IMG/VR virus record: IMGVR_UViG_3300028233_000495
Span: 1 to 38,639 of that record
Source of the DNA: a virus
Length of the DNA: 38,639 bases
Strand: one strand, 5' to 3'
In this document: in pieces, positions 10,823 to 37,946 of the stretch
Position numbering within the stretch: position 1 is the stretch's first letter
Layout of the letters: each line of letters opens with the position of its first letter
Position numbers and translations under genes: made by a program
The notes under the pieces: model-generated
What the model was told of the DNA's origin: nothing
Seen by the model: only the letters and a program-made list of their open reading frames with translations
Databases searched by the model: none

Positions 10823-11572
10823 ATTAAAACCTAAAGGGTCAATAAACACTGACTGTGGTACGTTAGATATATCATAGGGTATTGTGTTAGTTATATCATA
10901 GGGTAAGCTAACTGGTGGTATTGTACTACCAGTATCGTCAATACCACTACCAGTGCCACCGCCTCCAGTGCCACCACCTCCAGCGATTGTTTCACCAAAC
11001 TCAATATCATAAGGGAATATAACATCCTCTGATAGTTCTGGTGGTTTAAGTATGTTAGAGCCTATAACAACAGGCCATGTTTGTTCGGTATATTTACTTT
11101 GTAGGTTAATTACAGAACCGTAAGACTCATCATGAACACTCAAACTGCTAATTAAAAACTCCTTTATGTTATCGTAATATGATTCTTGTACTAGTATTAG
11201 AGGTTGAACAATTAATGTATAGTTACCATCGTCAAAATTAATTAAAACCTGCGCTGATAACTCATTAATGTGAGTCTCTGTAGGTGCATAAATATGTTTA
11301 TATTTATTTAAAATACTACCACCTAATAAGCCTTCAGTTACCTCTCTAAATATAGACTGCTCAGAAGCAGTTGCTGCTACAGCTTTTGAATAATATTCAC
11401 GTATCTCACTATCACCCCAGTCAATTGTAATGTTAAGAGCTGAGCTTTTCTTTTCTGATATTTTGGACAAGTCAAACTCAACATCCGTCGACCCTTTATA
11501 AGTTATTGGATCGTTATATATTGTTTGGTTAGGCTGAGATGAATCTAACGCTATAGAAATAATATTGCTCAT
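10817..11572 (-). CDS. Virion-associated protein with Gly-rich linker, possibly PKD-like
   Basis: 251 residues from the ATG at 11572, which overlaps the upstream stop by ATGA; a TTG three codons earlier is unlikely. A beta-rich N-terminal domain has ITIDWGDSEIREYY, then HIYAPTETH and LINFDDGNYTLIVQPLIL. The order [I/W]DWGD, HxY, then a Gly-x-Tyr strand is the outline of a PKD-like sandwich, though weaker than in the protein at 33214. After residue 190 comes a Gly/Thr linker (GGGGTGGGGTGSG) and a short repeat PYDITNTIPYDISN. It is the last gene of the tail block, coupled to the 969-residue protein. Function unknown; attachment of a small domain to the fibre tip is a guess. Confidence 0.75.
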   Translation of the reverse strand: MSNIISIALDSSQPNQTIYNDPITYKGSTDVEFDLSKISEKKSSALNITIDWGDSEIREYYSKAVAATASEQSIFREVTEGLLGGSILNKYKHIYAPTETHINELSAQVLINFDDGNYTLIVQPLILVQESYYDNIKEFLISSLSVHDESYGSVINLQSKYTEQTWPVVIGSNILKPPELSEDVIFPYDIEFGETIAGGGGTGGGGTGSGIDDTGSTIPPVSLPYDITNTIPYDISNVPQSVFIDPLGFNL

Positions 11573-14478
11573 AATATGCAAAGTTGATTTTGATTAATGT
11601 CGAAATTTGTAAATGCAGCAATAGGTGAAGTGCAAAGTGTTGTAAACGTAGTACTTGGTGTGAAGGATGTAGTGCGTAATACTACCTCCTTATCATAAAA
11701 ACGTGTAACGTTATTTAGAGTCAAAACACCTGATCTCCACTCAAAAAGAAAATCATGTAAGTGTGTTAGATTATTTTGATCTAGTAGTACATAAGATAGC
11801 TTTACCTTATTGTGCATGCTATTATACGCAAGTTTAGGTGTTTTAATTTTTTCTGGTGTAAAGTTAGCTGAAACAGTACCGAAACTCGTTCTAAAACTTA
11901 CTAGATCAGCCTGTTTTTCATTCTCAGGAAATATCTTAACAGTAGTATTATTTGTTATATCATATTGATATATTTCAGGGTAAATGTACCAATAATTTGG
12001 TGGTAATAAGCTACCGGTTGCAAGATCGGTTTTAAGAGTCTTAAATACTGCAAACAAAATAACACCGTCACTATTGGGTGTATCTACCTTATTAATGAAT
12101 AATCTATTCGAACAAACGCTAAGGTTATCGGCACTATTTACTGAAACTAAAGTATTTGACGTATTTGGTTTTACAAATGAACCGTCCTTATACCCAATCT
12201 TATCTATAAGAAGTGTGTTAGGTGTTTCTAAAATGATACTATCGTTTATAATATCAAAATCAATTAAGTTTATAGATATATCATTTATAATTTCTTCACT
12301 ATACTTTGACAGGGTTGTAGAAAGTGCATTAATAATAGGTTGTGATAATCCTGTTCCTTGATCCTTTACATATAAGTTTCCAGCTTCAAGCAACCTACCT
12401 ACATTAGTACTCGCACTAGATACAGAGTTGTTTTCTTGCAATGCTGTTTTGTTTTCGTCAAAAATTTCATTAAAGAATTGAATATCTGCCGTGTTATCTG
12501 TCGGTTGCTCGTATTTAAATCTATCTGCAAATCTACCACACACATAAAAATCACGTATGTCGTCGTTATACGTCTTACAATTAACAAATGTCTGGTAGTA
12601 GTAGTTATCTGATGATGGATACCTAGGATCATCTGTTTTAACAGGGTCTGGTAATGCAGTACCATCTGACTGAGTAAAGTCACCACCATCCTTAAACGAA
12701 ACAATCTTTTGATCTACTTCTTGTGTTTCATCAAAACCTCCAGAGTCTTCAACACTACATGAGCGTTCACCCTTTAAATCTTCATATGGCAGAAAATTCC
12801 TAAAAAACAAATAGTAAGGAGATTCAGTTTCTAAACTTGTAAATGAATTTGTTGTTGTTTCTAAACCAGATCTAATAGTCTTAAATCTACACTCTGCAGT
12901 GTCATAATTAAAATCAAAACCTTCATTAAACACATCATCGTAAAATGTATGACCATCTAGAAGTACACTTAAAACAGTATCTTGTGATACTCTCTGCCTA
13001 TCTTCTAGTCTTTCAGGTTTAAACAATGCATACTCATTACCGAAACAGTCATACGATATTTTACGTATTACTCCATTATTATACAAATCTGAAAAGTTAA
13101 GATTATACCCAAGACTGTTTAGAGTGTTTAATTCTTGTGTTTCACGCTGCTTTGTCGAATAAGGCTCGAAGGTTAAGTTTTTGTTAGTTATTTTTGGATC
13201 ACCGTATGCTACATTACTACTTACATTACGTATGTTATCTCTAAAATCAAATGTAAATAAGAAAGGATAAGAACTGAGTGAGTTAACACCAACATTACCA
13301 TAGACCTCTGGGTCTGGAAAGATGTAGATATTATCTGTTTCAAGTGCCGTCGTATCAAGCTCAAACGAACTTTTTACAGAATTTAATTTAAATAGTCCAA
13401 TATCATCTGGCTTAAAGAATAAGCCAACATCACGTAACATTACTTGCTCATTACTTGCCACCGCTGCAATGTCACTTGATTGTATGTTTAGTAGGTTATT
13501 AGTTGGGGTATCAGCTTGAAATAGTAAACCTGAAACAGGTGATGTACCTGTTGTATCAATATAGTAAAAGTCACTTGATATGTATTTTGTTATAAACTGT
13601 CTTTTGAGCTTATAAACTTGTGCTAGTGTTAAACCACCCTTTGTATAAACGTCATTAAGTTCATCTAAAAAGCTATCATCGGGCGTACAAACAGAGCTAA
13701 TATCTTGCTGTGATAACTCCGGTGGAGTTATCTTAAAGTTCTTTATAGGTCTAATAAACGAATTACTTTTAAGTACCTTTAAAGCATCTGGATCAAAAAA
13801 GTAATCTGTATCTATCTTAATTGAGTTATCGTTAAAGAGCTGCTTACGTAATGCCTGTTCGTCTTTATCATTAGATAAATCGAAATAATCACCATACACA
13901 TCTATATACTCTTGTAAGCTAATACCAAAATCACGTGTAATAGAAGATAAACTGCTACCATAAGTAAGTAGTACGTCCTCAGAATTAATTACATAATTAT
14001 AAATGTTATCGAAAATAGCACGTTCAATACCTGTTACGCTACCCTTTATTTTGTTTTTAGTAATAACATACTTACCCTCCTCACGTTTACTTTTATAGAA
14101 TGTAGCAACTTCGGTTAGCTTGTTCGCATAAAATGGTATCGCAATATCTAAGTCATGAGCATCATTGTAATTTATTTTTTGTAGGAAACTTTTTTCTGTT
14201 TCAGTTGTAAACGTTAATATTATTTCCTGAATAAATTGTTTATAGTACTCTTTGAATAATTTCTTTTGATCCGACTTACTATCAGTTTGTCTCTTATACC
14301 AAAGCTTTAAATACGATGTATACAACGAGCTATATTTATCGGGAGCATATTCCGTTTGTAGATATTGTATAAAATCTAAAAACGAAAAAGGTGTACCTTG
14401 ATCCCTCACACTTTCTTGATCAGAAAGCTCTGTATTAACAACAGAAAAATTTAGATCTTTAATGTTAAAACTATTCAT
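11569..14478 (-). CDS. Large virion structural protein (969 aa), function unknown
   Basis: No signal peptide or membrane segment. The first 230 residues are helical and charged (FLDFIQYLQTEYAPDKYSSL, SLYTSYLKLWYKRQ, YYKQFIQEIILTF), unlike a fibre and more like an assembly or baseplate-docking domain. The rest is beta-rich, Asn/Asp/Thr-rich, with few cysteines, typical of tail proteins. I cannot name the family. The length recalls T4 gp7 (1032 residues) but I see no sequence evidence for that. Its own late box AATAAATA lies 9 bases before the ATG, so it can be expressed independently of the giant upstream. Its stop is coupled by ATGA to the next gene, suggesting the two products act together. 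Confidence 0.8.
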   Translation of the reverse strand: MNSFNIKDLNFSVVNTELSDQESVRDQGTPFSFLDFIQYLQTEYAPDKYSSLYTSYLKLWYKRQTDSKSDQKKLFKEYYKQFIQEIILTFTTETEKSFLQKINYNDAHDLDIAIPFYANKLTEVATFYKSKREEGKYVITKNKIKGSVTGIERAIFDNIYNYVINSEDVLLTYGSSLSSITRDFGISLQEYIDVYGDYFDLSNDKDEQALRKQLFNDNSIKIDTDYFFDPDALKVLKSNSFIRPIKNFKITPPELSQQDISSVCTPDDSFLDELNDVYTKGGLTLAQVYKLKRQFITKYISSDFYYIDTTGTSPVSGLLFQADTPTNNLLNIQSSDIAAVASNEQVMLRDVGLFFKPDDIGLFKLNSVKSSFELDTTALETDNIYIFPDPEVYGNVGVNSLSSYPFLFTFDFRDNIRNVSSNVAYGDPKITNKNLTFEPYSTKQRETQELNTLNSLGYNLNFSDLYNNGVIRKISYDCFGNEYALFKPERLEDRQRVSQDTVLSVLLDGHTFYDDVFNEGFDFNYDTAECRFKTIRSGLETTTNSFTSLETESPYYLFFRNFLPYEDLKGERSCSVEDSGGFDETQEVDQKIVSFKDGGDFTQSDGTALPDPVKTDDPRYPSSDNYYYQTFVNCKTYNDDIRDFYVCGRFADRFKYEQPTDNTADIQFFNEIFDENKTALQENNSVSSASTNVGRLLEAGNLYVKDQGTGLSQPIINALSTTLSKYSEEIINDISINLIDFDIINDSIILETPNTLLIDKIGYKDGSFVKPNTSNTLVSVNSADNLSVCSNRLFINKVDTPNSDGVILFAVFKTLKTDLATGSLLPPNYWYIYPEIYQYDITNNTTVKIFPENEKQADLVSFRTSFGTVSANFTPEKIKTPKLAYNSMHNKVKLSYVLLDQNNLTHLHDFLFEWRSGVLTLNNVTRFYDKEVVLRTTSFTPSTTFTTLCTSPIAAFTNFDINQNQLCIL

Positions 14479-14487
14479 TGATGTTAT

Positions 14488-14495
14488 TATTTATT
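14488..14495 (-). promoter_or_regulatory. Late promoter box AATAAATA
   Basis: AATAAATA on the - strand overlaps the stop of the VWA protein and ends 9 bases before the ATG at 14478. Confidence 0.6.
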
Positions 14496-17400
14496 GACAG
14501 CTCTGCGTTATCTCGTTTATAATTGATGTAGCATCACCGGAACTATTAACACTACCACCCGTTGATTCAGCTATTTCTCGCCAAATACCATCCCTGTTTA
14601 CACCTGGCCCTATTACAAATATCTTAATACCCTTATTAACTGCTGATGCTATTACTTGATCGACACGAGCTCTGTTATCTGATCTAAATACCCCAGCAGT
14701 ACCTAAATATGTATCTGTAATAAAGATAATATATCTTGCAACATTAGGTCTTAACACCCCGGCGAAATTATCATCGATTATTTTTTGTAGTGAAACATCA
14801 CCAGGTATAGAGCTAATACCGTAACCAAGCCTCACTTCACTAGCTAATCGATTTAACCTATATACAAAAGCATCATCATCTTCACTAAGAGGTGACCATG
14901 TTGTTAGTAAAAAGTAACCATTACGACTTCTTCTTTTATAACCTGTATACTGGAAGTACTTTTGGTCAGCCGGTAAATTAGCCCAGTCTGAATTACTATT
15001 ATATATCTTACTTGCGTTACCAGTAGTTATTTCATCTGATGTGTTTAACGCTAATCTATAATTATCGTTAGATAAAGTGCTTAGAGTGTCAGTAAGATTC
15101 TTGACACCATTCTTGACACTATTGATAATGTTCCTCATACTACCGGTGTAATCAATAGAGAAAACTACATCCATACCATCAATGCAGTTTATAGGTGTTA
15201 TTTCTACTTCATTCGAAGCAAACGATTTATCGTCAAATGAAGTAACAGTGGCAAAGTTTGTAAGGTTACCACGCCTTTCAGGTTTAAACTTATATTTAAC
15301 AGTCGTGGATTCTCCCGGCTGTAAAACTCCCTGCCCTTGAATTAACTTTAGTGGGTCTGATTCAATAATTAAATCATCCGTATTGTAGGTCTTTACGTCG
15401 ATGTTATTATCACTCGTAAGGTTATCAAATAATAAGATATTTTCAGCAGCTACATCTCCGTTATTTGTGATATCGACTTGATAGCTAATCGGAAATCCAA
15501 CATAATACGGTCCTTGTGTTGTTGTTTTCTTTTTAACCTTTAAAGTCTTTTCTAAAAACAAGGCACCTACTGTAGATTCTGCAGCTACTGTACCTCTTCG
15601 TGGGCTAGAAGCTGTAGCTATGTTTGAAACTCGTGTCTGTAAAGCGTCGTTATTTGTAACAGTATATTTATAATAAATACTGGTTGAAGTTCGTGGTGAT
15701 AAAGTAATACCAGTATTAAATACATCAAGTGGATCCTCTATATCAAATAAGCTCGAACAAAGTGTATCAGTAAGTGTAATATCATTAATTGGATCCTCTG
15801 TATTATTGGATAATGTAACTGTATAGGTAATGTTACTACCGACTTTATACGGACCTGGTTTATCTGTTGTTTTAGTGATTTTAAGAGCTTCCGTTAATGG
15901 TGGATCTGGTAATACTGCTAAGCTCAAATTAACTTCATCTTGTGTATCAGTATTACTAATATTAATTAGCTTTGTTTGTAAATTATATGCTTTATTGAGA
16001 ATGCGATTTAAACCACCTACTGTATTCTCTTCATTATGATGTAAAAAGTAGTCTTCTATATTCTCAGCGCGTAAGTCATCAAAATCTATATTATAATTAT
16101 AACTATCTAAAATAATATCACCGTTAACGTAACGACCGGAAAAACGACCTACAATATTATCACGCAATATAAATAAATCTTGCAAAAGTTTGTATAGCTC
16201 AGCGTTTATTGTAGCTACTTGTATATACTCTTTTGGACTTAAAGAGAAATTACCTGTACTATAGTTTTGATAATTAGGTTTTGTTAAAACGCGTGTGTAC
16301 GCAGTTGTTGTAGGTTCGTCAAAGAAGTAAACTCTAGACTTTGTAAAAATAATCTGTTTATCAAAACCATCTGAACCTAGTAGAATATTGAAACCTTTAA
16401 AGTTTTGAGACTGTATTGCGTTTGCTGTGCTACCATTTACATTAGTACTTGTACCTTCTTTATTCCATAAGAAACCAGCACCTAACCATTGAACGTTTTG
16501 ATAATTCCACCTATTTTCAAATTCATTATTTGTAATACTAGCGCGGTTAATTAAGCTACCTTCATTAAAGGAACCAATAGTTTCTTCAGGACGAGTTTTA
16601 AACTTCTTATATATTTGCTTATTTGTACTATAATACCAAAAGTTACTATCAACTTTAGAAAAGGAAATAGTATTAACTACCTCATCATCTGCTAAAATAT
16701 CGCTAATTTCTGTGGTATCGAATTTTTGAGTTTCAATATTTAACCTATATAGGCGTAATCTATTATTTTGTAAACTATTTAAAATATAGAGTGTACCAAA
16801 ATCAGGATCAAAAGCCATAGCCCTAAAGATTTCTTGATCACGTCGATTTGGCCTATATCTAAATATACTAAATGTCGTTTTATAATCAAAATCGACCGTA
16901 AAGACCTTCAAGCAGTAATTGCCACTATCATATACAACAATATCACTACCATTACAAGCTATAGCACCAGGTCTGCTAAGATTTGCTCTTCTATCTATAC
17001 TTCCTTTACCACCTAGTACTTCCTGCAAATATCTTTTATTACTTAACGCTACGTCGTTATTTACAAAACCTTTGATATCATACTTTAAAATAATATTGTG
17101 TTGCTTGTCAGAAATAAACAAACTATCTTTATTTGATGCTATACCGCCTATTTCACCAAAGTTCTGGGTGTTAGATGATAAAGTTTCATAAGCAGAGCTT
17201 GTCTCAACAATACTTAAATTGTCATTATTACCTGTGATTGCTATAAAAAGGCTTGATGACGCGCAGAACATAGTAAACTTTGTAGAGTCTTCGTAATTAA
17301 TCTGCGTTGTAACGTCGAAAATATTTGCTAACTCTTGAAACTCATCACTATCATAAAAACTAATAGCATTATCAACAGACGGGAAGTTTCTATCTAGTGT

Positions 17401-17817
17401 TGTAGTAGTAAGCTCTTGATCATATATTTTCGTAAGACCTGCATAAGTAATTTTGTTTGCAGCTGGTAAGTTATTTGAAGCTATAAACATACGACTATAC
17501 ATATATGTTATATTACGTCTAATATTTTCGAGCTTATATTTAAATGTTTCGTAGTTAAGTGTTTCGTTTAAGCCAAATGTACATTCAGAATTACTTGAAG
17601 GTAGCTGTATACCTTCGTCTTTAATAACTCTATCTTTAAAAATACCTGAAGCAAATAAGCTCGTGCCGTATGAATTGTTAGGTACTAAAGTATCAGAACT
17701 ACTTCCTGATGCTAGCACCACACCATCTTTATACTGGATAAATCCAGTATATGGTTTACCACTAAGGGTGTATAAGTCACCGTGTGTATATATTTGTTTA
17801 TATGATGTATAATCCAT
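14491..17817 (-). CDS. Giant adhesin-like virion protein: NHL-type propeller, two DUF11 repeats, C-terminal von Willebrand A domain
   Basis: 1108 residues. Residues about 210-440 hold NHL-type propeller blades (GGIASNKDSLFISDKQHN..ILKYDI, RPGAIACNGSDIVVYDSGNYCLKVF, AFDPDFGTLYILNS). After a helical region come two DUF11 repeats at about 646 and 757 (PGPYKVGSNITYTVTL and QGPYYVGFPISYQVDI, each ending with an NxAT strand). Residues about 882-1108 form a von Willebrand A domain: DVVFSIDYTGSM has the metal-site pattern D-x-T-x-S (usual D-x-S-x-S), then YIIFITDTY and GIKIFVIGPG, ending ESTGGSVNSSGDATSIINEI as in this fold. By family knowledge such domains bind proteins through a metal ion; here I infer surface binding. 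The start is coupled to the upstream stop (TAATG). No signal peptide, as expected for a virion protein. Confidence 0.85.
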   Translation of the reverse strand: MDYTSYKQIYTHGDLYTLSGKPYTGFIQYKDGVVLASGSSSDTLVPNNSYGTSLFASGIFKDRVIKDEGIQLPSSNSECTFGLNETLNYETFKYKLENIRRNITYMYSRMFIASNNLPAANKITYAGLTKIYDQELTTTTLDRNFPSVDNAISFYDSDEFQELANIFDVTTQINYEDSTKFTMFCASSSLFIAITGNNDNLSIVETSSAYETLSSNTQNFGEIGGIASNKDSLFISDKQHNIILKYDIKGFVNNDVALSNKRYLQEVLGGKGSIDRRANLSRPGAIACNGSDIVVYDSGNYCLKVFTVDFDYKTTFSIFRYRPNRRDQEIFRAMAFDPDFGTLYILNSLQNNRLRLYRLNIETQKFDTTEISDILADDEVVNTISFSKVDSNFWYYSTNKQIYKKFKTRPEETIGSFNEGSLINRASITNNEFENRWNYQNVQWLGAGFLWNKEGTSTNVNGSTANAIQSQNFKGFNILLGSDGFDKQIIFTKSRVYFFDEPTTTAYTRVLTKPNYQNYSTGNFSLSPKEYIQVATINAELYKLLQDLFILRDNIVGRFSGRYVNGDIILDSYNYNIDFDDLRAENIEDYFLHHNEENTVGGLNRILNKAYNLQTKLINISNTDTQDEVNLSLAVLPDPPLTEALKITKTTDKPGPYKVGSNITYTVTLSNNTEDPINDITLTDTLCSSLFDIEDPLDVFNTGITLSPRTSTSIYYKYTVTNNDALQTRVSNIATASSPRRGTVAAESTVGALFLEKTLKVKKKTTTQGPYYVGFPISYQVDITNNGDVAAENILLFDNLTSDNNIDVKTYNTDDLIIESDPLKLIQGQGVLQPGESTTVKYKFKPERRGNLTNFATVTSFDDKSFASNEVEITPINCIDGMDVVFSIDYTGSMRNIINSVKNGVKNLTDTLSTLSNDNYRLALNTSDEITTGNASKIYNSNSDWANLPADQKYFQYTGYKRRSRNGYFLLTTWSPLSEDDDAFVYRLNRLASEVRLGYGISSIPGDVSLQKIIDDNFAGVLRPNVARYIIFITDTYLGTAGVFRSDNRARVDQVIASAVNKGIKIFVIGPGVNRDGIWREIAESTGGSVNSSGDATSIINEITQSCQ

Positions 17818-20800
17818 TACTTTGTAAATAAAATATTATTAATTTCCACTCCAACAGGTAAAATATCAGCTGCGTCGTTCATAATGTTAAGCTTAATTTG
17901 CGATTTAATATCTTCATCTTCTATATTAAAATTATTGACAACAATATCAATTTTCTTTGAGGAGTTATTTCTACCAAACTTATAAAAACGTTCAATAGTT
18001 GCTTTATTGTTTCTCTGTCCCTGTGGTAAAGAGAGAACTAACTCATCAACACTACCGTCTAATAGGCTTAAAGCGTAAATTAACGGTTTATCCGCTGGTC
18101 TATTATAAACGAGCATATTTTTAATTTGTAGGTCATTTATATAATAGTAACCAGGCTGTTTAAGATATGTAGATAAATCAAAGCCATTGTAAAATCCTGC
18201 TGTTCCAACAAAAAGCTCATCATTAAAAATATCATGGAGGTTATATTTACCTGGTGGAAACACTATTTCCTCGTATTGTATACCATCCACATGCAAGGTT
18301 GCAACACCTACAATGCTATCCAAACTAAATGTTAGTGTATGCCAACCTTTATCAATGTCAGATATACTATAATTTATAACTTCAGCGCGGATATCTTCCG
18401 AGTCAAAGTTATTTTTAAGTGTAAGTCTGAAGTCTAAAGATTTACTGTCGTAAATATAATTTAATATGTTGTAATTCGTTAATGGGGTGTGTTTGTATGT
18501 TTCTTGATTAACATCACTTAAAATAGTATTACCGTCAAAAACAATTGAACCATCTGCCGTAGTCTGAAGTAACACTATACGTGTCTCGCTTAACCCGCCC
18601 TCAACGTACTCGTGTATTGTATCTATGTTTAAGATTTTACCACCAGTAAAATCGATAACATCTTCTACTTCTAGACCCTCACCACCGTTAAACTCATCAT
18701 CTAAAGAGTTGAAGTCAATTTCTTTTTGTACAACACCTTGTGTTGTTATGGAAATTAGCTTATTATCAATAGTAACATATATTAGGTTTATACCTGCCTC
18801 GTATTTTATTGTTAAATTAGAGATATTACCTGGTAAGCTGTAAAACAATACAGGCTCTTTTGTAAGGTCATGTTTAATAATATTACTTACCTCGTCACCA
18901 TTACTTGCTCTTGAAGTTATAGTATAAAATAGAACGTCTTCTGTTTCCCATACCATATCGCAACCAGGTAATAAGTATACAATATCTTTATGTACAAAAA
19001 TATTTTCATACCAGAAAACTTGTGTACCGGTATTTACACCCGATGTATCTAATACACCATTATACGCATCAAATGACCGCCACTCTACCTCTTCAATGCT
19101 TAACTTAGTTAAGTCTAGCTTTTGTACAATATTATTCTTAAAAAGAAAATATATATAATCATCCTCCATATAAGAGTTTATATAACCTAAAATGTTAGTT
19201 ACATCAAGCTTTAACTTATTTCCTTTTGCATCTACCCTAAAAATGCTACCATCAACACATGTAACAATAAAGTTACGTAAAGCAGACCGTTTATATACAT
19301 CTTTTATGTTACTAGTAAATGTCGTTGTATTTAGTAACACACCACTTGTATTATAAATATTGAGATCATTGTTATTAACAATATGAATAAAGGGTGTTAC
19401 TGTTAAGTCTTGGAATAATCCAAAACCTTTATTAGTATTATTACCGAGTATCTGAAAACCATACTGCTTATCAGGATCAATAAACATATCAAGTGAAATA
19501 GTAAACGTCTTTGTTTTATTAATTGCCTCGTAAACACTTAACTTACTATAAAAGGTACCATCAAAGGTAATATCAGAGGTATTTTGAGACTTACAGTAAT
19601 TTTCTGTTATATCACCTAAATTATCGTAATTACTAATATTCCTAAGTGGCCTAGATGTTATACATGTATCAAAACTTGATAAAAGTGGGTTAGAGTTATA
19701 AACTATATCTTCTATATCTGTATTACCAACACGCTCATACTTTAACGAGCTATTAGGTGTTATAACTAAGTCGCTAAGTTTATCAAAAAATCCACGACTC
19801 TCAATACTGTTTTTCTGACTCTGCTCTATAATACCACGATCAACATGATCTAAGAATGATGCTTTATACTTAGGTACTTTACTTAACGCCACGTCCTTTT
19901 CTAGTATATCTGGATAGTAATATCTATCTACCCAGACGCTTGGTGAAGTTAAGCTACTACCTGATAACCACGTGCATAGATACCTACCATTTTTATACGT
20001 GTTACGTTTATCTTGTCTTAAATAGACTTTATCTGCTAATATTGGTACTGGTCCACTAAAAGCACCGTTTTTCACAAATGTACTATCGTTTATATTAAGT
20101 TTAGCGTAAGGGTAAATTGACGAAGGTGCTGTAAAGAAAGTAGTCGCACCATTTTGTATATAAATGTCTTTATCATATAATGTATAAAGTAGAGATAGTT
20201 TATCATTACCACCTTCTTCATCTACTCCCGTGTCGAGTGTATTGTACTTTCTATAATTAAACGTTGGAACGTCGTTTCGAGCGTCAAGTAAGTTAGTACC
20301 ACGTTTAATAAAATTATACTCTGATCTATTTGTGTCGAGTGTAATAAAATTAAACTCGATAGTTTTACTATCAACGTTTATATTATTATACTCACTATGA
20401 AATAAGTATTGACCTGGTTGATTAAAAATACTCTTATCTATATTAATATTAAGTGAGTTAATCTGCCCGGTCTTATATGATACAAAATCGTTGTTTTGTG
20501 ATTGATTAATAGATATAGGCTTATAATCTGTGTAAATTGTATTTGTAACAGATGGTCTAACACCAATTGTTGGGTCTACTTGAACCATCTGTATATCCGT
20601 ATCTACCATGTTTAATACAAACAAATCTCCTGTAGTGCTCTTTTTAAATAGGTGTAAACGGCCGCGATCATCAAGACTATAACGAAACATCTCACTAGTC
20701 TCAATATTTGTATCTTCAATAGTGTCGTCAAAAGATCGTATGAAACCTAATCTATTATCAGCTTCGTCCCAGTTAAGAAAAAAATCAAATCTACCATCAT

Positions 20801-21251
20801 TATGTCGTACTCTTGCAAAGTAATTATTTATTAACTCTAACTCATAAAAATAATTATTTTTAAACGCGCCTGTATTTTCGTTTTGTATTCCAACAGGTCG
20901 TTGATTATTAGAAGCCACATCACCTACAAGGTTTGCAGTAGTATAAATGTATACAAACTTAGAATCAGTTAGACTTTCTCTATTAAACTCAAGTCGAGTT
21001 GTTATTGTATTAAACGCCTTCTCAATAACAGCTGTCTCAGTAAATTCAGTTAATAAGCTAGGTTTCGTAATATAATTTAAACTAAAGTTATTATTTTTTT
21101 GATCCTCAATACCATTTAAAGCGGCAATATTGTTAACCATAAACCCTTGTTCCAGGTTGGATGTATATTGCTTTATTACCCGTCGTGGGTCCGGATATAC
21201 TGCACGTGGAAAGAATATATCTCGTGTACTTTTATAGAGCGCTTTATTCAC
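17817..21251 (-). CDS. Giant virion protein with LamG-like and propeller-like regions
   Basis: 1144 residues beginning at GTG. The N terminus (DIFFPRAVYPDPRRVIKQY) is basic and may dock to the tail. The body is beta-rich. Around 567-650 a jelly-roll-like segment (TFTISLDMFIDPDKQYGFQILGN) is followed by repeated short strands with Asp turns (SIFRVDAKGNKLKLDVTNI, YIYFLFKNNIVQKLDLTKL, LIYVTIDNKLISITTQGV) that resemble a propeller. Around 913-1060 comes a LamG/concanavalin-type domain with the typical GWHTLTFSLDSIVGVATLHVDG core. I infer glycan or surface binding. These assignments rest on strand patterns and could be refined by structure prediction. The next giant gene is coupled to its stop. 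Two TAAATA-type boxes lie upstream, 8 and 23 bases from the GTG. Confidence 0.78.
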   Translation of the reverse strand: MNKALYKSTRDIFFPRAVYPDPRRVIKQYTSNLEQGFMVNNIAALNGIEDQKNNNFSLNYITKPSLLTEFTETAVIEKAFNTITTRLEFNRESLTDSKFVYIYTTANLVGDVASNNQRPVGIQNENTGAFKNNYFYELELINNYFARVRHNDGRFDFFLNWDEADNRLGFIRSFDDTIEDTNIETSEMFRYSLDDRGRLHLFKKSTTGDLFVLNMVDTDIQMVQVDPTIGVRPSVTNTIYTDYKPISINQSQNNDFVSYKTGQINSLNINIDKSIFNQPGQYLFHSEYNNINVDSKTIEFNFITLDTNRSEYNFIKRGTNLLDARNDVPTFNYRKYNTLDTGVDEEGGNDKLSLLYTLYDKDIYIQNGATTFFTAPSSIYPYAKLNINDSTFVKNGAFSGPVPILADKVYLRQDKRNTYKNGRYLCTWLSGSSLTSPSVWVDRYYYPDILEKDVALSKVPKYKASFLDHVDRGIIEQSQKNSIESRGFFDKLSDLVITPNSSLKYERVGNTDIEDIVYNSNPLLSSFDTCITSRPLRNISNYDNLGDITENYCKSQNTSDITFDGTFYSKLSVYEAINKTKTFTISLDMFIDPDKQYGFQILGNNTNKGFGLFQDLTVTPFIHIVNNNDLNIYNTSGVLLNTTTFTSNIKDVYKRSALRNFIVTCVDGSIFRVDAKGNKLKLDVTNILGYINSYMEDDYIYFLFKNNIVQKLDLTKLSIEEVEWRSFDAYNGVLDTSGVNTGTQVFWYENIFVHKDIVYLLPGCDMVWETEDVLFYTITSRASNGDEVSNIIKHDLTKEPVLFYSLPGNISNLTIKYEAGINLIYVTIDNKLISITTQGVVQKEIDFNSLDDEFNGGEGLEVEDVIDFTGGKILNIDTIHEYVEGGLSETRIVLLQTTADGSIVFDGNTILSDVNQETYKHTPLTNYNILNYIYDSKSLDFRLTLKNNFDSEDIRAEVINYSISDIDKGWHTLTFSLDSIVGVATLHVDGIQYEEIVFPPGKYNLHDIFNDELFVGTAGFYNGFDLSTYLKQPGYYYINDLQIKNMLVYNRPADKPLIYALSLLDGSVDELVLSLPQGQRNNKATIERFYKFGRNNSSKKIDIVVNNFNIEDEDIKSQIKLNIMNDAADILPVGVEINNILFTK

Positions 21252-21299: not shown

Positions 21300-23612
21300 C
21301 TAAAAGGTACAGCTCAATGATGGTGTTGAATGCCATAAGAAGTAGTCCTGTGTATCACCACTTGACAGGGTGTATACCATACTATAATCCTCTATAGCAG
21401 CTGTTAACGCTGTTAACGCTGTTGTGTGTGTTGCCATACCGTCAAAAGAGCTAGACTCTTCATACCAGAATAATATTCTCGTATCTGGCCCGTAACTTTC
21501 GAGATTTAGTATATTAAACCAATTTGATTCTTTTGGATCTTTTGGAATAATAACCACCTCAGCATTGGTATCGTTTTCAAACTCTGTAGGTATATTAATA
21601 TTATCAATATTATTAGGTTCGTCTAGCAATATATAAAACGGTGTATTCGGGTTAAAGGTCCTAAATAATGCCCAATGCTCGGTAGAAGCTGTATAATTAC
21701 TTGCCTCTGAAACTAAAGATACATTAACACATCCTTTTTGTACGGTATCGATTCGAACAATGCTCTTAGATGATTGCCTTGTAGGCCAATCCACACGTAG
21801 TATAGACTCAATACCATCTGATGTGTTTGTATTAATAGTAGATCTATATGTTGCACTTAGAGCAGTATCAGGCCCTATATCTGTACCGGTAAACAATGAA
21901 TCACCACTTACAATCTCAAAGCCATCTGGATTATCAGCTGATAATGAATCAGAAAGAACTATATTAGATATTGTTGCTCTTTCATTAGGGTTATAAACTT
22001 CAACTTCGTACTCAACCACTGTATCTAAACCATAGACACCGAGCTCTACACCACCTAATGTAGTTAGACCTGTTGATTTCTCAACTCTATTCAATCTAAG
22101 TGACGCTAGACCTTCAATATCACTTATTACGATAGGATCATCTATATACGTTTTACCAATTACAGACTCAACATAAGCATTATTAATAATAGGTGAAGTA
22201 TTTGTGATAGTGTAAGAATATGTTGCTGATGCGCTATCACCAGGTGAAAGAGTAGTAGTATTATTCAATAAATTATCTGTATTTATCTCTATATTGAAAT
22301 TAGGGTCATCTTGCAATGTATCTACTACACGTACATCAGCAATCTCAACATTATTAGGGTTTTCAACAGTAACCTTATACAGCACCGAGTCACTGACTTT
22401 ATATGGACCAGTAGATATTTCCTCTTTATTAATTACAAGATCAACAAAGCCTCCTAGTGTTGTAATAGCTGTATCAGTTACTACTAAGCCTGTATTTGTT
22501 GTAACTGTAGCAGTGTTTTCGATTTGTGTACCATCCTTAGCTGATGTTTGATACTTGTAAGCAACAGTCTTTGTTTCTCCTGCCGAAAGTGTTTGATTAC
22601 CAGAAAATAGATCACCTTCACCCGTTATATTTAACCTCTCTACTGTGGGTATAGTGTCAAATACTACAATATTACTTAACTCAAACTCACCTTGGTTTGT
22701 AATTGTAATAGTGTAATCAATTATATCACCAAGCTCTGGAGCATTTTGTAGTGCGGTTTTGGATATTAGAATCTGGCTTTGGGTTGGTGGGTTACACATT
22801 ACAATATTTTTAACCGGTGCAACTGGTACGATTTCTATATCTGGCTTTATTACAAGCTCGCTACCTGCGTATGGTTGTACTTCAGTCTGAGGTACTAGTG
22901 GTTCCGGGTACCTTACCTGCTTATCTGGATCATTATCTTTTCCTTCAATGTGAAAAGAATGGACCTTAATGTTCAGGTTTGAAGTCTGCTTTGTTAAATG
23001 TTTTACAAAAGAGACACCCGGGGTAAGACGGTCACCCTCACTTAAACTTAAGTCTACATCCTTAGCTAAAACTTGCTGATAATCTGTATCACCTGGACCC
23101 CTATAGTCAATATAGATAGTTCTACCGAAGTTACCTAACCGCGCTCTTAATGTTTTGATACCATCACTAAGTAAGTCGAAAGCTTCTATCTTTTCATGAA
23201 GATCTAAAAACGTAAACCCACTACTTTCACTACCTCTTACCGTTATAGCGTTCTTCTGCAAGCCTGTAACTAAACCATCACGTTCTAGGCCACCCGGCCA
23301 AGCTGTCTTGGCTGCAAAAACTCCCCGTGTATCTAAACCTATACCTAATTTACCACCTTGTAACCCTACTGCCTTTTCGACAGATGTACCATTTACTGGC
23401 GCGCCTGAATACCCTAGATCTATACCAATACCACCGTACTTTATATCAGAGCTACTATCTTGCAGAAAGAAGCATAACCCGTATTCATCCGTTTTACTCC
23501 AATTAATAATTTCATATTTAATAGACCATATAATATCATAGAATGGTGAAAACTCACCATCGCTTATATTAACTGATGCTGCGGAAAGAGGTAGATTGGT
23601 TGGATAATCCAT
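21300..23612 (-). CDS. Lectin-like virion protein with three DUF11 repeats
   Basis: 770 residues. The first 240 resemble an L-type lectin/concanavalin fold: DEYGLCFFLQDSSS, GGIGIDLGYSG, GGKLGIGLDTRGVF and YIDYRGPGDTDYQQVLAKDV follow the order of strands in bacterial lectin-like domains, with LGIGLDTRG in place of the usual VEFDT. Three DUF11 repeats follow at about 281, 391 and 504 (each with a xYxVTVxNxxx strand, a DTL/DSL motif and a PG-x-S/T turn). The second has the STGPYKVSD opening shared with repeats in the genes at 14491 and 32453. The last 150 residues (ILLDEPNNIDNINIP, RILFWYEES) are unassigned. Inferred role: a stalked carbohydrate-binding tail protein. It has its own AATAAATA box 7 bases from the ATG. 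Confidence 0.8.
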   Translation of the reverse strand: MDYPTNLPLSAASVNISDGEFSPFYDIIWSIKYEIINWSKTDEYGLCFFLQDSSSDIKYGGIGIDLGYSGAPVNGTSVEKAVGLQGGKLGIGLDTRGVFAAKTAWPGGLERDGLVTGLQKNAITVRGSESSGFTFLDLHEKIEAFDLLSDGIKTLRARLGNFGRTIYIDYRGPGDTDYQQVLAKDVDLSLSEGDRLTPGVSFVKHLTKQTSNLNIKVHSFHIEGKDNDPDKQVRYPEPLVPQTEVQPYAGSELVIKPDIEIVPVAPVKNIVMCNPPTQSQILISKTALQNAPELGDIIDYTITITNQGEFELSNIVVFDTIPTVERLNITGEGDLFSGNQTLSAGETKTVAYKYQTSAKDGTQIENTATVTTNTGLVVTDTAITTLGGFVDLVINKEEISTGPYKVSDSVLYKVTVENPNNVEIADVRVVDTLQDDPNFNIEINTDNLLNNTTTLSPGDSASATYSYTITNTSPIINNAYVESVIGKTYIDDPIVISDIEGLASLRLNRVEKSTGLTTLGGVELGVYGLDTVVEYEVEVYNPNERATISNIVLSDSLSADNPDGFEIVSGDSLFTGTDIGPDTALSATYRSTINTNTSDGIESILRVDWPTRQSSKSIVRIDTVQKGCVNVSLVSEASNYTASTEHWALFRTFNPNTPFYILLDEPNNIDNINIPTEFENDTNAEVVIIPKDPKESNWFNILNLESYGPDTRILFWYEESSSFDGMATHTTALTALTAAIEDYSMVYTLSSGDTQDYFLWHSTPSLSCTF

Positions 23613-32452: not shown

Positions 32453-33202
32453 TTACAATGTTATTTCCGTATTAACACAAACTGTAGTTAAGGTAGTCAT
32501 TGTAACAGCTGGTATAGCACAAACAGTATTTTCAATTTTATTATTTTGTAAGTCAATTGAAGTAATAATATAATCATATGTGGCAGTAAAAGACTCCCCT
32601 GCAGGTATTGTCGTAAACTCTGTTAATAAGCTAGCCGCTGCACTATTTTGATTTTCTAACTCTGGTAGACTTTCAGTTAGCTTTACTAGAAGATCTGATT
32701 CACCTGGGTTGTTGATAACTGTTTGATAATTAACTATCGAACCTGCATTGATAACACTCGGTAGTGTATAAGTTTGAGATAACTCTAAACCTGGTGGTGT
32801 AACAAGATCATTTACACTCGCTTCATCACAAACTTCTAATAGTGGTGATGAAAGGCAAGCAGTGTTGGTTATTTCACCAACATCAATATCCGTCTCGACC
32901 ACTTTATAGCTATAGAAAATTTCTGTAGTCCACTTTGCATCGATACACGCACCACCGGGGCTCATTAACCCTAATGGGTCTTCGAGTACACTAATAGATG
33001 ATAAGGAGTCTGTGATTACTGCATCTTTTAAGTTTGTTCCACCTGTATTAGTAACAGTAAGCTGATATATTATATCATTACCTACAGTATACGGTCCTGT
33101 AGTTAGTACTTCTTTACGTAAATCAATCGCAGCAGGAATTGTTGGAGCTGTACAGATTATCGGTCTATTGATTGGTTTAGGTATGGGTAAAGGCTGTTCC
33201 AT
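32453..33202 (-). CDS. Small virion protein made of two DUF11 repeats
   Basis: 249 residues. A short Pro-rich leader with a Cys (PLPIPKPINRPIICTAP) precedes the first DUF11 repeat (about 26-125: TTGPYTVGNDIIYQLTVTN, VITDSLSSI, then a C-containing turn and ITNTAC). The second is at about 138-249 (LPSVINAGSIVNYQTVINN, LTESLPELE, PAGESFTATYDYII, IENTVC). DUF11 is an Ig-like beta sandwich found in bacterial and phage surface proteins, where it acts as a spacer or adhesion unit. Repeated cysteines at equivalent places suggest disulfides or metal sites in the extracellular particle. A late box (ACTAAATA) overlaps the upstream stop codon, 8 bases from the ATG. Confidence 0.82.
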   Translation of the reverse strand: MEQPLPIPKPINRPIICTAPTIPAAIDLRKEVLTTGPYTVGNDIIYQLTVTNTGGTNLKDAVITDSLSSISVLEDPLGLMSPGGACIDAKWTTEIFYSYKVVETDIDVGEITNTACLSSPLLEVCDEASVNDLVTPPGLELSQTYTLPSVINAGSIVNYQTVINNPGESDLLVKLTESLPELENQNSAAASLLTEFTTIPAGESFTATYDYIITSIDLQNNKIENTVCAIPAVTMTTLTTVCVNTEITL

Positions 33203-33210
33203 ATGTAAAT

Positions 33211-33218
33211 TATTTAGT
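33211..33218 (-). promoter_or_regulatory. Late promoter box ACTAAATA
   Basis: ACTAAATA on the - strand; its TAA is the stop codon of the upstream PKD gene. Spacer to the ATG at 33202 is 8 bases. Confidence 0.55.
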
Positions 33219-35625
33219 CCTCTTCGTCACAATCAAACAATTCTAACCCATCATAAAGTGCATTTGCAAAAATATTTGACATAACACCATTCTTCTTAAC
33301 CCAATCTGTATGTGTATATCTAGTATTAATAGTAGTGTTATTATCTTTAAAATTAATAATAGAACCTTCTATATTCTGTTCGCGGTTTTGAGGTTTGTAG
33401 TAAAACTCGTAAACATCAAATAATGTACCGTCTGCGTCTAATATTAACGGCCAGCCCCACGATTCATTATAATCACTCAGCTGGTAGTATACAGTCGACG
33501 TAGAGAAAAAATCACCGTCAACATAACTACCACTTACACAAATTTCGAAATATTCCCCCTCAACTAACATTGTTGTCAAGTCTTCAGTAGCAAGTGGTGT
33601 ACATGACGCTAAATCAAAACACGTTAGCCCATCGTTTGATAAGGGATTTATACTAAAGTTTGATACAGTCGGGGCATCACTAGCACAAAGTGGTAGCATT
33701 GTATTGAGAGATGTCCATTTACCACTAAATTTTTCAAAAGCAACTATTTCATACCCCGCAAAAACAACCCCATCTTTAGGTATTGGTTTACATCTATCAA
33801 CACCGTAATTATCTGTGTTTAAGTAACCGAAGGAGTTAAAGTCGTCTTTATTTTGGTTTATATTACCGAACAACCGAGTTTGACTAATAGACAACAAATC
33901 TAACAACCGTTTAATCTTTGGTGGTAATGAATATTTGTTAATTTTTGGTAGATTGTAAGATTGTAATATTGACGCGAGTTGATCTATATTAGCATAATCT
34001 ATAACTGCATTATTATCAAAGAAGTTTTGTATTTTTTCATAGGTACTCTTACCAAGTGAATCTTGTGCAGAATCTATATCACCGAAAATACTTCCAATAA
34101 AGTCGTTCATTAACATTCTTGTATCTGCAAACAACGGCTGTATTGCGACATCCTTGAAAATATCCTTAAAATCGATATCTTCACCTTGCTTTGCGACAAC
34201 GTAATAATCTTTCGGGTATATATCAAACTTATTACTCTTACCTGTTACTACTTTACCTACAAGTTCCGGCGGTAGTTTAAGCTCACCGAAGTTTTCCGGT
34301 ATAGTAATTTCTGCCTCAAGCCAGACATCTTTTAATACTTCGGTTGTATTAATTTTAACATTACCCTTTAAGAATCCTCCAGCATATGCGTTATAAAAGC
34401 TAGGTAACAATGTAGATGACATACTAGCAAAACTAGAATCAAAAATTGCATCTTCATACACTGTTACCCCGTCAGTAAGTCTCATCGTTGTAGGTATATA
34501 ATCATCACCTTCAGTTATTAAGTGGTAGATCTCACTTTCAATATCTAATACAGAAAGCGGCTCACGTTCTGTAAGTAGTGGTTGTTCCGGGCGTATGTTT
34601 AATATTAGAAGAGGTAATGACCTTACAGAGAACCTTTCACTATCCTTTACTTGTACTACAAAAGATATTTCCGTACATCCAAACTTTGTAGAATTAATAT
34701 TAAATGTATCTATCGGTACATTATCACCGTCAATACCGTTTGTAGTTATAGATAAGCTATCGTAATCAAAATTATCACATATTTTTGCTGAAACACCATA
34801 TGTAGTTGTGTTAGTGAAGTCATAAACATCACCCTGTTCAAAACCAAAATATAAATTATAAAATCCTGGCATATCACTCTTGAAGAACACTTCATTTGTT
34901 GATGATACACCTGCAAAAATCGAGGTCTCATTTACCTTTTCGGATGTTGGTATAATCACATCACCGCTAGCGGTTGCATATATATTATCATATGACTCTA
35001 CCCTAACTGCGCTTATAGCTATACTATCTGTACCGTTATTAATACGTTGAATAAAATTATGAGAAGGTAGTAGGTGACCATATGTCTCTTGTGACCGACC
35101 AGACTCAAAAAAGCCATACTCACGTTCGAAACTTTTTGAATCAGCATAAGTTAGCACTGGAACCGGTCTATTGTTACGTTCAAATGTACGTGCAGAATTA
35201 AATTGAGTTATACTAATTGGGGTTTTAAACTCCCCAACAAGATACTCTAGGGAACATGTATTTTTATCAACATCTAATACAATTTTATCTTCTACGAAAT
35301 CATAGATATTTACTGTTACTGAGAAAGTATTAAAATACCCATTACCTTCATTATCATACAAATAGCTTCTTACTTTATACTGTCCAGGTGTTTTATATAC
35401 ATGCTTCCCGGTAATAGCTTCCATAGTAGTACCGTCACCGAAATCCCAAACAATACGTTTATTAGATAGGTTATCAGGCCAATCTTCCCCCACTGTAGGT
35501 TTAAACAAGAGTGGTGAATTATCGAGAGCATAACTAGACAGTGTTTGTACACCTGTTGCACCGTTAACAGTGTAGTAAAAGGTATACTCGAAATCTAAGT
35601 TTTCTGTATCTGCTCCAGCGGCCAT
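33214..35625 (-). CDS. Large baseplate/tail protein with N-terminal PKD domain
   Basis: 803 residues. Residues about 50-110 are a textbook PKD domain: RIVWDFGDGTTM, KHVYKTPGQYKVRSYLYD and the closing strand FNTFSVTVNIYDF. The next 350 residues are beta-rich and contain motifs of the type SISTTNGIDGDN and ILNIRPEQPLL. Residues about 470-600 are helical (PLFADTRMLMNDFIGSIFGDID, IDQLASILQSYNLPKINKY), perhaps for docking, and the C terminus (about 600-803) is beta-rich with five or six cysteines and ends acidic (LFDCDEED). In the gene order of T4 the gene after gp6 is 7, but I see no gp7 similarity. By position and size it is probably a baseplate or tail-tip component with a binding domain. Start confirmed by a TATAAATA box 6 bases before the ATG. 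Confidence 0.82.
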   Translation of the reverse strand: MAAGADTENLDFEYTFYYTVNGATGVQTLSSYALDNSPLLFKPTVGEDWPDNLSNKRIVWDFGDGTTMEAITGKHVYKTPGQYKVRSYLYDNEGNGYFNTFSVTVNIYDFVEDKIVLDVDKNTCSLEYLVGEFKTPISITQFNSARTFERNNRPVPVLTYADSKSFEREYGFFESGRSQETYGHLLPSHNFIQRINNGTDSIAISAVRVESYDNIYATASGDVIIPTSEKVNETSIFAGVSSTNEVFFKSDMPGFYNLYFGFEQGDVYDFTNTTTYGVSAKICDNFDYDSLSITTNGIDGDNVPIDTFNINSTKFGCTEISFVVQVKDSERFSVRSLPLLILNIRPEQPLLTEREPLSVLDIESEIYHLITEGDDYIPTTMRLTDGVTVYEDAIFDSSFASMSSTLLPSFYNAYAGGFLKGNVKINTTEVLKDVWLEAEITIPENFGELKLPPELVGKVVTGKSNKFDIYPKDYYVVAKQGEDIDFKDIFKDVAIQPLFADTRMLMNDFIGSIFGDIDSAQDSLGKSTYEKIQNFFDNNAVIDYANIDQLASILQSYNLPKINKYSLPPKIKRLLDLLSISQTRLFGNINQNKDDFNSFGYLNTDNYGVDRCKPIPKDGVVFAGYEIVAFEKFSGKWTSLNTMLPLCASDAPTVSNFSINPLSNDGLTCFDLASCTPLATEDLTTMLVEGEYFEICVSGSYVDGDFFSTSTVYYQLSDYNESWGWPLILDADGTLFDVYEFYYKPQNREQNIEGSIINFKDNNTTINTRYTHTDWVKKNGVMSNIFANALYDGLELFDCDEED

Positions 35626-35640: not shown

Positions 35641-37467
35641 CTAAACTCTACGTATAGTTATTTTATTTGTTATATCTGAAACTTGATAAAAGTATGCGTA
35701 TTCAAAATTCTTTAGTTTATAGTCTCGTGCCAATACAACACTATCTATATCCTTATAATCTGGATTCCATATAATAAATGAAAGGTTAGGTGTAACGTTA
35801 TTACCGTTAACTGTCTCTAGACCTTCTATACCATCTATATTAAGAATATCCTTAGATATTTGTGATATATCAACAAGACTACCTAAATCGAGGGAATCGA
35901 AAGCTACTTTAAAAATATTAAATATTTTTGATTTAATTGACGCATCGCTAACCGCGATATTTCTATCAACTGTTACACGTATACCCGATTCACGTAATAT
36001 ACTATCTACAGAAGAGCTATCTGTAATTTCACCGACACCAAAACTAAATGCTTTAAATATCGGATCAGATATAACAACATTATGAGTTATATCTTTTTTC
36101 TGATTACAATAATCGATGATTAATCTCTTCTGACCCTCATTTAGGTAGTTTGGAAGAGTCTCATTTATTATTGGCTGATTAGTACGTACAGTATAAACGT
36201 ATATGTTGTTAAAGTTTGTAGACGTTGAGAAGTTTACTTGTGCAAGTAATGTCCTTGTATCATCAATACCACGTTTTACACCTATGTTATTATAGTAGAA
36301 TAAAACCTGTGATGTATAATCTTCATTAGAAAGCACTTTAACATTACGCGTTACATTACCGAAGTGTCTATTGATGTGTGATTCATAGTCTGATTTATTA
36401 ACTAACCTATCTTGCGTTTCAAATATTTTTGGAGCTGTTTGTTTTATCTGCTCTACTGTTTCAGCAGATTTAATAGGTGTTGATGCAAACTCATTAGTTA
36501 CTAGTAGATTAGGTAGTGTAGAGGATGTAATAGAATTAAGATCACTATATAAATCTGTATATATATCTTGCCAGTTACTAGACGTATACAATACAGGGCT
36601 CTGATTATCAGCACTATTAGCACCAACAACACCTGCATCGTTGTCTGAGACAATATAGAATAATACTACCTTATCACCTTCGTTTAATGATCTACCGTTA
36701 TTACTGTCACCAAATTTAAACTCATAATTACCACTATGATTTAAGCGCTTTTCGTATTTTTTACTCGCTGGATCTTCTAAAAATAAAGATGTAGCTTCTT
36801 GCCACTCAGACCAGTTACCGGTCACACTGTCTTGTACATAAACACTAAATGTATTATCAGCAATAAACTTACTTTCCTTTACCTGCTTCGCTGATTCGGT
36901 TAGTTGTGGTGATGTGTACGAATCAATAAGAGTGATAGTTTCATAACTTTCTCCAACAGCAGTAAACGTAGCCTCTTTTAGGGTACCCTGATGTAGTAGG
37001 TTGTTGCTTAGCTCTAAGGTTTCGACAGTATTATCAGATACCTTTTCAAATTCTATATCCTTAAGTGCGTAATAGCTATTACCACTCACATTAATAAATG
37101 AAAATTTAGGTAAAACATACGCACCAGCGATTATGTTTTGAGCTGTGATATCTACTGTTAAAATTGAAGTTTGATCTCCTAGAGGTTTGTAACCTATACT
37201 TGAGACCAACTTACTCATATTTTCGTAAATAGTAGCAGTTGTAAATGTGCTTTCGTTTGATGTAGTGTTTAAATAAAACAGCAACACATGATACATATAA
37301 GCAACAACATCAATAAAAGCATTAAAGTTTGAACCTTCAAAGTTTTGATCTGTGAACTCCTCGTTTTCGTTAAGCCTTTCAATAATTAACTCTTTGAGAG
37401 AGTTTGCATCAAAGCTTAAGTAAGCGTTCTTCGGTAATTTAAAGTCTGTAAAATTTTCTAGGCTCAT
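35641..37467 (-). CDS. 6: Baseplate wedge protein, T4 gp6/J-like family
   Basis: 608 residues (T4 gp6: 660). The N terminus has the family's typical opening with a short motif before a long helix (FTDFKLPKNAYLSFDANSLKELIIERLNEN and FNAFIDVVAYMYHVLLFYLN), then a beta domain (ILTVDITAQNIIAG), a central region (RLNHSGNYEFKFGDSNNGRSLNEGDKVVLFYIVS) of the baseplate J-like kind and a C-terminal part with DYESHINRHFGNVTRNVKVLSNEDY. By family knowledge gp6 forms the ring linking baseplate wedges around the hub, together with gp25 and gp53. The start overlaps the gp25 stop by ATGA, the gene order expected for a T4-like baseplate. Confidence 0.92.
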   Translation of the reverse strand: MSLENFTDFKLPKNAYLSFDANSLKELIIERLNENEEFTDQNFEGSNFNAFIDVVAYMYHVLLFYLNTTSNESTFTTATIYENMSKLVSSIGYKPLGDQTSILTVDITAQNIIAGAYVLPKFSFINVSGNSYYALKDIEFEKVSDNTVETLELSNNLLHQGTLKEATFTAVGESYETITLIDSYTSPQLTESAKQVKESKFIADNTFSVYVQDSVTGNWSEWQEATSLFLEDPASKKYEKRLNHSGNYEFKFGDSNNGRSLNEGDKVVLFYIVSDNDAGVVGANSADNQSPVLYTSSNWQDIYTDLYSDLNSITSSTLPNLLVTNEFASTPIKSAETVEQIKQTAPKIFETQDRLVNKSDYESHINRHFGNVTRNVKVLSNEDYTSQVLFYYNNIGVKRGIDDTRTLLAQVNFSTSTNFNNIYVYTVRTNQPIINETLPNYLNEGQKRLIIDYCNQKKDITHNVVISDPIFKAFSFGVGEITDSSSVDSILRESGIRVTVDRNIAVSDASIKSKIFNIFKVAFDSLDLGSLVDISQISKDILNIDGIEGLETVNGNNVTPNLSFIIWNPDYKDIDSVVLARDYKLKNFEYAYFYQVSDITNKITIRRV

Positions 37468-37946
37468 ACTACTACATATCCATCTCTATTTAATGTTGCT
37501 TTCAAGTTTAAATTGTAAATATCTAAAGAAGGTATAGAAAATACTATATTAATATAATATTCCCCTTCATCTGGCGCACCCGTAACACTAACCCCGTTTA
37601 ATTCAAGCCTAGGCTCGTATACACCAAGATTATTATATATATCTGTAGCTATAAAATAAGAAGTTGTTGTAGTTACAGGCTCAAATAGGTAACTTCTAAG
37701 ATCTAACCCAAATCTAGGGTTAAGAAGCTTTTCACCTGGGGTAGTTGTCATTATATTTTTTATTGAATTAAAAACTGCTTCTGCGTCTTGTAATTCGGCT
37801 AAATCCTTAGGTTCTGAAACTGCATAAAGTTCTCTTCCTAAATAACGTGAAAACTCTAGATCGAGCCTTATATCCTTATAAAGGTATCCTTTCTCTAGAG
37901 CACGTTCATCAGCTTTAGATTGTTTTAATACATCTAATTCAATCAC
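37464..37946 (-). CDS. 25: Baseplate wedge protein, T4 gp25/GPW family
   Basis: 160 residues (T4 gp25: 132), lysozyme-like in name only in the older literature. The conserved GPW/gp25 core is present: VFNSIKNIMTTTPGEKLLNPRFG (with the PGE-x-[RKL]-x-x-P-x-FG signature), LRSYLFEP, IATDIYNNLGVYEPRLE with the EPR motif, and the final strands YYINIVFSIPS. It makes the inner baseplate and starts sheath polymerisation. The start is GTG, 5 bases after ATTAAATA; no better ATG is available. It is the first gene of the long - strand block and its stop overlaps gp6. Confidence 0.93.
   Translation of the reverse strand: MIELDVLKQSKADERALEKGYLYKDIRLDLEFSRYLGRELYAVSEPKDLAELQDAEAVFNSIKNIMTTTPGEKLLNPRFGLDLRSYLFEPVTTTTSYFIATDIYNNLGVYEPRLELNGVSVTGAPDEGEYYINIVFSIPSLDIYNLNLKATLNRDGYVVV

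Follow-up and report, generated by a model that had tools for sequence, protein, structure and literature searches.

A tail-region protein of a T4-like phage ends in a VWA domain of a subfamily that probably serves as a swappable host-attachment tip

Herein, we analysed a window of 38,639 nt (positions 1 to 38,639 of IMG/VR virus record IMGVR_UViG_3300028233_000495), in which a 1108-aa tail-region protein, P0001, ends in a von Willebrand A (VWA) domain. Its conserved residues assign this domain to a separate VWA subfamily, here called the DYTGSM type of Bacteroidota and their phages, which probably provides a swappable host-attachment tip. We favour the reading that P0001 is a virion protein and that its VWA tip recognises a ligand on the cell surface, most likely a protein of a Bacteroidota host, and give it a probability of roughly 0.55. 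To our knowledge, the receptor-binding modules of abundant marine and freshwater Bacteroidota phages are poorly known. If the reading is true, the subfamily would be a searchable marker with which to find attachment proteins in uncultivated phages, and phages would have a further way of recognising hosts, namely integrin-like protein binding that possibly depends on metal.

P0001 and its place in a T4-like tail operon

The open frame of P0001 starts with ATG and occupies exactly 14491-17817, the same position and length as in an earlier sequence-only reading that left the minus strand unstated. It lies between large genes of the gp25-gp6 operon and has the following features, in order of the protein.

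14491-17817, minus strand: multidomain tail-region protein P0001
16543-17277, minus strand: NHL-like repeat region, residues 181-425
15955-16311, minus strand: predicted helical linker, residues ~503-621, from the secondary structure of a low-confidence model only
15595-15888, minus strand: Ig-like domain 1 (DUF7507/DUF11), residues 644-741
15223-15531, minus strand: Ig-like domain 2 (DUF11), residues 763-865
14494-15192, minus strand: VWA domain, residues 876-1108, C-terminal
15136-15156, minus strand: MIDAS motif 1, I888-D889-Y-T891-G-S893-M894

The Ig-like pair was recovered by hmmscan of the full-length protein (DUF7507, PF24346, E 1.9e-14; DUF11, PF01345, E 1.1e-12), bearing out the two DUF11 repeats read from the letters. 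The NHL-type propeller proposed in the same reading fared less evenly. Residues 181-425 matched the NHL domains of TRIM3, TRIM2 and Thin in phmmer (E 3e-8 to 2e-4), with one blade-like stretch set against several target blades; single copies were weak, and NHL gave no Pfam match in P0001. NHL-type repeats are supported by these sequence matches, but a complete, closed propeller is unproven. When residues 1-643 were modelled with AF2 without relatives, the pLDDT was 33, and the strand triplets in this low-confidence model were counted neither for nor against a propeller. Searches found no relatives of the N-terminal part, and P0001 as a single query in viral contigs recovered near-identical copies from the same virus only. 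Within P0001, these copies, which include IMG/VR 3300024415_000528 and 3300028396_000009, were one base apart from the window, by a synonymous third-position change in codon 944 (GAC to GAT).

The left quarter of the window encodes, on the plus strand, a gp41-like helicase, gp32-like and gp45-like proteins, a 5'-3' exonuclease and a primase. The minus strand carries gp25, gp6, a PKD protein, a DUF11 protein, two Gp10_C proteins and Mtd_N/collar fibres, followed by large proteins of no known family, with P0001 as the third gene from the end. The genes that matter for its setting are as follows.

11569-14478, minus strand: 969-aa neighbour of no known family
17817-21251, minus strand: 1144-aa neighbour of no known family
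21300-23612, minus strand: 770-aa neighbour with DUF11 repeats and a Cys-bracketed C-terminal domain, a layout as in P0001
27107-30643, minus strand: 1178-aa protein with Mtd_N and phage collar domains, tail fibre type
35641-37467, minus strand: gp6-like baseplate wedge (phrog_219, E 4e-41; cyanophage gp6 matches)
37464-37946, minus strand: gp25-like baseplate wedge (PF04965, E 1.3e-12)

The same virus is also represented by a longer contig of 55.6 kb, 99.97% identical where compared, which further encodes a tail sheath and a gp44-type clamp loader. Judged by this gene content, the virus is a contractile-tailed T4-like phage, with the P0001 gene inside its tail/baseplate block (gp25, gp6 and Gp10_C), which agrees with the T4-like tail region recognised earlier. 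The phage is far from cultured ones: the nearest matches of its gp6 and gp41, in cyanophages and Campylobacter phages, reach ~28-30% identity. Among cultured phages, no credible relative of the region, of P0001, of P0002 or of P0003 came up at the DNA or protein level, and in viral contigs P0002 and P0003, each used alone as a query, recovered the same virus only.

Several other elements of the window were recorded. The ~145-aa Cys-bracketed C-terminal domain of the 770-aa neighbour had no Pfam, PHROG or PDB match. Near gp6 lie two Ig-like virion candidates on the minus strand, an 803-aa PKD protein (33214-35625) and a 249-aa double DUF11/DUF7507 protein (32453-33202). A family 2-type glycosyltransferase on the plus strand (355-1020) has a 33% relative in VWA-carrying phage contigs (L143-L146), and many late genes on the minus strand have TAAATA-like motifs just 5' of their start codons, resembling T4 late promoters. 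Shine-Dalgarno sites were found for 1 of 33 genes; this measure was dropped as host evidence because the controls did not clearly separate hosts (cyanophage, 8 of 49 with 4.1 expected; Flavobacterium phage 11b, 4 of 63 with 2.0 expected).

Fold and metal site of the VWA domain

VWA was not listed by hmmscan of full-length P0001. When its last 233 residues were compared alone with PF00092, the match reached 30.8 bits (E 4.3e-7), and the curated cut-off of this family is 23.8 bits. The AF2 model of the domain, based on an alignment of 21 sequences, had a mean pLDDT of 88.8 and a pTM of 0.89. Integrin beta-I domains were the top matches of this model in Foldseek (E 2e-8) and aligned to it in VIA-align with a Z of 18.6 and an rmsd of 3.0 over 191 residues; anthrax-toxin-receptor VWA domains also ranked high. 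The model indicates that the C-terminal ~233 residues are a true VWA domain with an alternating alpha/beta, Rossmann-like fold, as had been proposed from the letters, and this predicted fold and the C-terminal position fit an adhesive tip. The domain shares the fold and the MIDAS pattern D-x-[S/T]-x-S ... D with integrin beta-I, integrin alpha-I and anthrax toxin receptor VWA domains, but at 12-17% identity and with a different loop 2, a likeness of fold and motif that does not point to a shared ligand.

The metal-site pattern D-x-T-x-S named in the earlier reading is present as D889-x-T891-x-S893, and the motif had 0 matches in 100 shuffles. D889, T891 (T/S), S893 and D1035 are conserved in 53 of 53 viral relatives. 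What did not hold is the acid of loop 2. The Glu of P-E-P-x-D, which takes the place of the usual loop-2 Thr in this subfamily and is kept in 51 of 53 viral, 12 of 12 lipoprotein and 3 of 3 eCIS relatives, is replaced in P0001 by Ile1004 with an additional one-residue deletion, giving S-I-P-G-D. The P-E-P-x-D loop is also absent from one viral clade (L147 type), indicating a common rather than universal feature. A nearby Ser or D1007 could stand in for the Glu, and the aligned residues describe a metal site that is only partly canonical. Because Ile1004 replaces the loop-2 Glu and the P0001 domain forms the longest branch of the subfamily tree, metal binding is possibly weakened; given the altered loop and the very long branch, the domain may have shifted its specificity or metal dependence.

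A VWA subfamily in phages, lipoprotein-like proteins and eCIS fibres

The subfamily signature is C-x2-G-M-D...D-Y-T-G-S-M...G-x-G-x3-P-E-P-x-D...T-D...C. In the alignments, P0001 has C-x2-G-M-D, D-Y-T-G-S-M, G-x-G, T-D and the C-terminal Cys, and its domain is 25-42% identical to the other 20 aligned members. A degenerate DNA pattern for D-Y-T-G-S-M matched 58 viral stretches, about half of which encode clear VWA relatives (tblastn E 1e-37 to 1e-7), and the alignment of 21 members led to at least 97 uncultivated-virus stretches with the subfamily; 80 loci were retained from these. The first pattern is biased towards D-Y-T-G-S-M itself; a second, covering a different stretch, also found D-Y-S-S-S-M and D-F-T-S-S-M variants with D-x-[S/T]-x-S intact. 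Nearly all members have Cys at both domain ends, and G-M-D, G-x-G and T-D are also conserved. PF00092 was matched by 19 of the 21 members and VWA_4 by 17.

A search of 50,697 cultured-phage records with three different subfamily members returned nothing convincing, and neither the VWA of P0001, that of two divergent relatives nor the most common carrier protein had a credible relative among cultured phages. The VWA domain, earlier called unusual in a T4-like tail protein, is so among cultured phages only and recurs in the uncultivated viruses. This recurrent phage family appears unreported in cultured phages and in the literature that we found, and it appears to be the new part here, VWA on eCIS fibres being already published (PMC12923769). 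The best viral structural match to the P0001 domain, from a library of predicted viral structures, was a "VWFA domain-containing protein" of Virus NIOZ-UU157 (A0A7S9SU38; TM 0.89, 29% identity), which differs in its length of 986 aa and whose function and partner domains are not described in anything we found. Two further candidates were set aside: phrog_7371, with marginal matches to four relatives only, and the VWFA protein of the crAss-like phage cr106_1, a weak structural match that adjoins nucleotide-metabolism genes, not tail genes.

The proteins that carry the viral domain range from 261 to 2240 aa. The most common is a ~740-aa protein with an "NCVIWQGPDI" start; others are ~1770-2200-aa proteins and short forms of ~260-350 aa. 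The domain lies near the N-terminus in 500-670-aa "MAVP" carriers and mid-protein or towards the C-terminus in 1196-1774-aa carriers. The distal position noted earlier therefore holds for P0001, where the domain is C-terminal, but not for some relatives, where it is near the N-terminus or mid-protein. One locus (L127, 8792-15511) encodes a 2240-aa collagen-like (GTSGTSG) viral protein with the domain in its first third. Receptor-binding modules move between proteins, and the VWA tree needs 16 changes of carrier type against a minimum possible of 9, indicating that the domain has been swapped between carriers.

In one phage (L089), the carrier matches phrog_14478, "virion structural protein", over residues 4-1531 (E 8e-248), with the VWA domain appended beyond this part. 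Cultured records with a phrog_14478-type protein are Flavobacterium, Cellulophaga, Tenacibaculum or Maribacter phages in 86 of 87 cases, many of them annotated "(virion) structural protein"; among the carriers, this annotation applies to the class-B family only. One class-A carrier has a gp34-like proximal tail fibre and head proteins as neighbours.

Outside phages, a scan of 84,980 species genomes gave 14 solid subfamily hits, all in Bacteroidota, and two marginal hits from other phyla. Thirteen of the solid hits are ~220-300-aa proteins, most with a lipoprotein-like N-terminus as judged by eye, and the remaining hit is a short piece similar to a phage carrier. In 13 of 13 loci, the lipoprotein-like gene is directly downstream of the same OmpA-family outer-membrane protein. 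This two-gene locus (L149-L161) encodes an OmpA-family protein with prealbumin-like repeats and then the VWA protein. The latter has P0001's type of VWA, including the two bracketing Cys, but is cellular, ~290 aa long and VWA only, and is not a known phage receptor. Profile searches found the subfamily rare in Bacteroidota genomes (2 of 296; 4 of 197 and 1 of 99 in two families).

In four Bacteroidota genomes, the domain is at the end of a ~1080-aa protein whose gene immediately follows an eCIS block of sheath, tube, CIS_tube, spike, gp25 and Baseplate_J genes. The one such protein scanned with Pfam has two cadherin-like Ig domains before the VWA. These fibres resemble P0001 in belonging to a contractile tail machine, in an Ig/cadherin-like stalk and in a C-terminal VWA of the same subfamily; they differ in an N-terminal part that shows no relation to that of P0001, and P0001 comes from a phage and has lost the loop-2 Glu. 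In the tree, the eCIS copies nest within the phage clade and the lipoprotein-like copies form a separate clade. The last fibre-like genes of the eCIS loci L170, L171, L175, L176 and L177 are paralogues, one ending in VWA; at the one locus scanned, the paralogue downstream of the VWA protein has a PKD domain instead. For eCIS of the eBAP4 class, a catalogue from 2026 names VWA, PKD, Big and cadherin as fibre domains (PMC12923769); the four loci resemble this class in their VWA fibres and may belong to it. An earlier eCIS survey counted VWA among putative toxin domains (PMC8213781).

Proposed role of P0001 and alternatives

P0001 would be a baseplate- or tail-fibre-associated virion protein of the contractile-tailed T4-like phage, a placement drawn from its gene neighbourhood. 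Its N-terminal part, with NHL-like repeats and helices, probably docks to the baseplate, the two Ig-like DUF11 domains may form a stalk, and the C-terminal VWA would point outward as an exposed tip. Such a tip would bind its surface ligand, presumably a protein and perhaps in a metal-dependent manner, through the integrin-type MIDAS face, and the ligand would most likely sit on a Bacteroidota host. Taken together, the movement of the subfamily between virion proteins, the Ig-like stalks, and the occurrence of the domain at eCIS fibre tips and in surface lipoproteins suggest a swappable adhesion module for Bacteroidota surfaces, and we infer that P0001 itself acts as one. The earlier idea that the phage may bind a host protein gains indirect support from the eCIS fibre tips and from the pairing of the lipoprotein with an outer-membrane protein. 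Several observations count against the reading: Ile1004 and the long branch, an N-terminal part for which no relatives were found, best gp6 and gp41 matches in cyanophages and Campylobacter phages, and carriers in which the VWA is not C-terminal.

The domain might instead be an internal assembly clamp, its MIDAS face holding another tail protein without any host contact. VWA domains often mediate protein-protein assembly, the many large neighbours of no known function are possible partners, and the mid-protein or near-N-terminal position in some phages would suit such a role. However, the same subfamily hops among unrelated carriers on the tree, and a phage-specific structural contact leaves the stand-alone lipoprotein-like cellular VWA unexplained, so we regard a clamp as unlikely.

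A tip that adheres weakly and in a general way to polysaccharide, particles or extracellular matrix, keeping the phage close to hosts but not acting as the receptor-binding determinant, would suit the Ig-like stalks, the other potentially adhesive proteins of the operon (PKD, DUF11, collar) and the diverged MIDAS loop of P0001. Conservation of the remaining MIDAS residues in the 53 relatives and the restriction of cellular relatives to Bacteroidota suggest a specific partner instead, making general adhesion rather unlikely as well.

A narrower form of the receptor-binding reading is that the phage VWA docks on the OmpA-type partner of the host VWA lipoprotein, that is, receptor recognition by host-protein mimicry, with Bacteroidota phages using a dedicated swappable integrin-like VWA common to lipoproteins and eCIS fibres. 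We hold both parts of this proposal to be speculative and improbable as they stand; if true, the OmpA-type protein and the VWA lipoprotein would be the candidate receptor pair.

Finally, P0001 could be a non-virion protein that serves in the cytoplasm as a VWA adaptor for an AAA ATPase or a metal chelatase. Most VWA proteins known in phages are of this kind, and CobT and MoxR-partner types have been described (PMC8651126, PMC7911831), but for P0001 this is very improbable: the CobT/TerY/MoxR-partner proteins share with P0001 a VWA in a phage genome and otherwise belong to replication or metabolic genes with no tail or Ig fusion (PMC8651126, PMC7911831), no AAA partner gene was seen among the tail-operon proteins examined, and the P0001 VWA is fused to Ig-like domains in a tail location, with relatives that match PF00092 and VWA_4 and occur in fusions with virion and eCIS fibre-type proteins.
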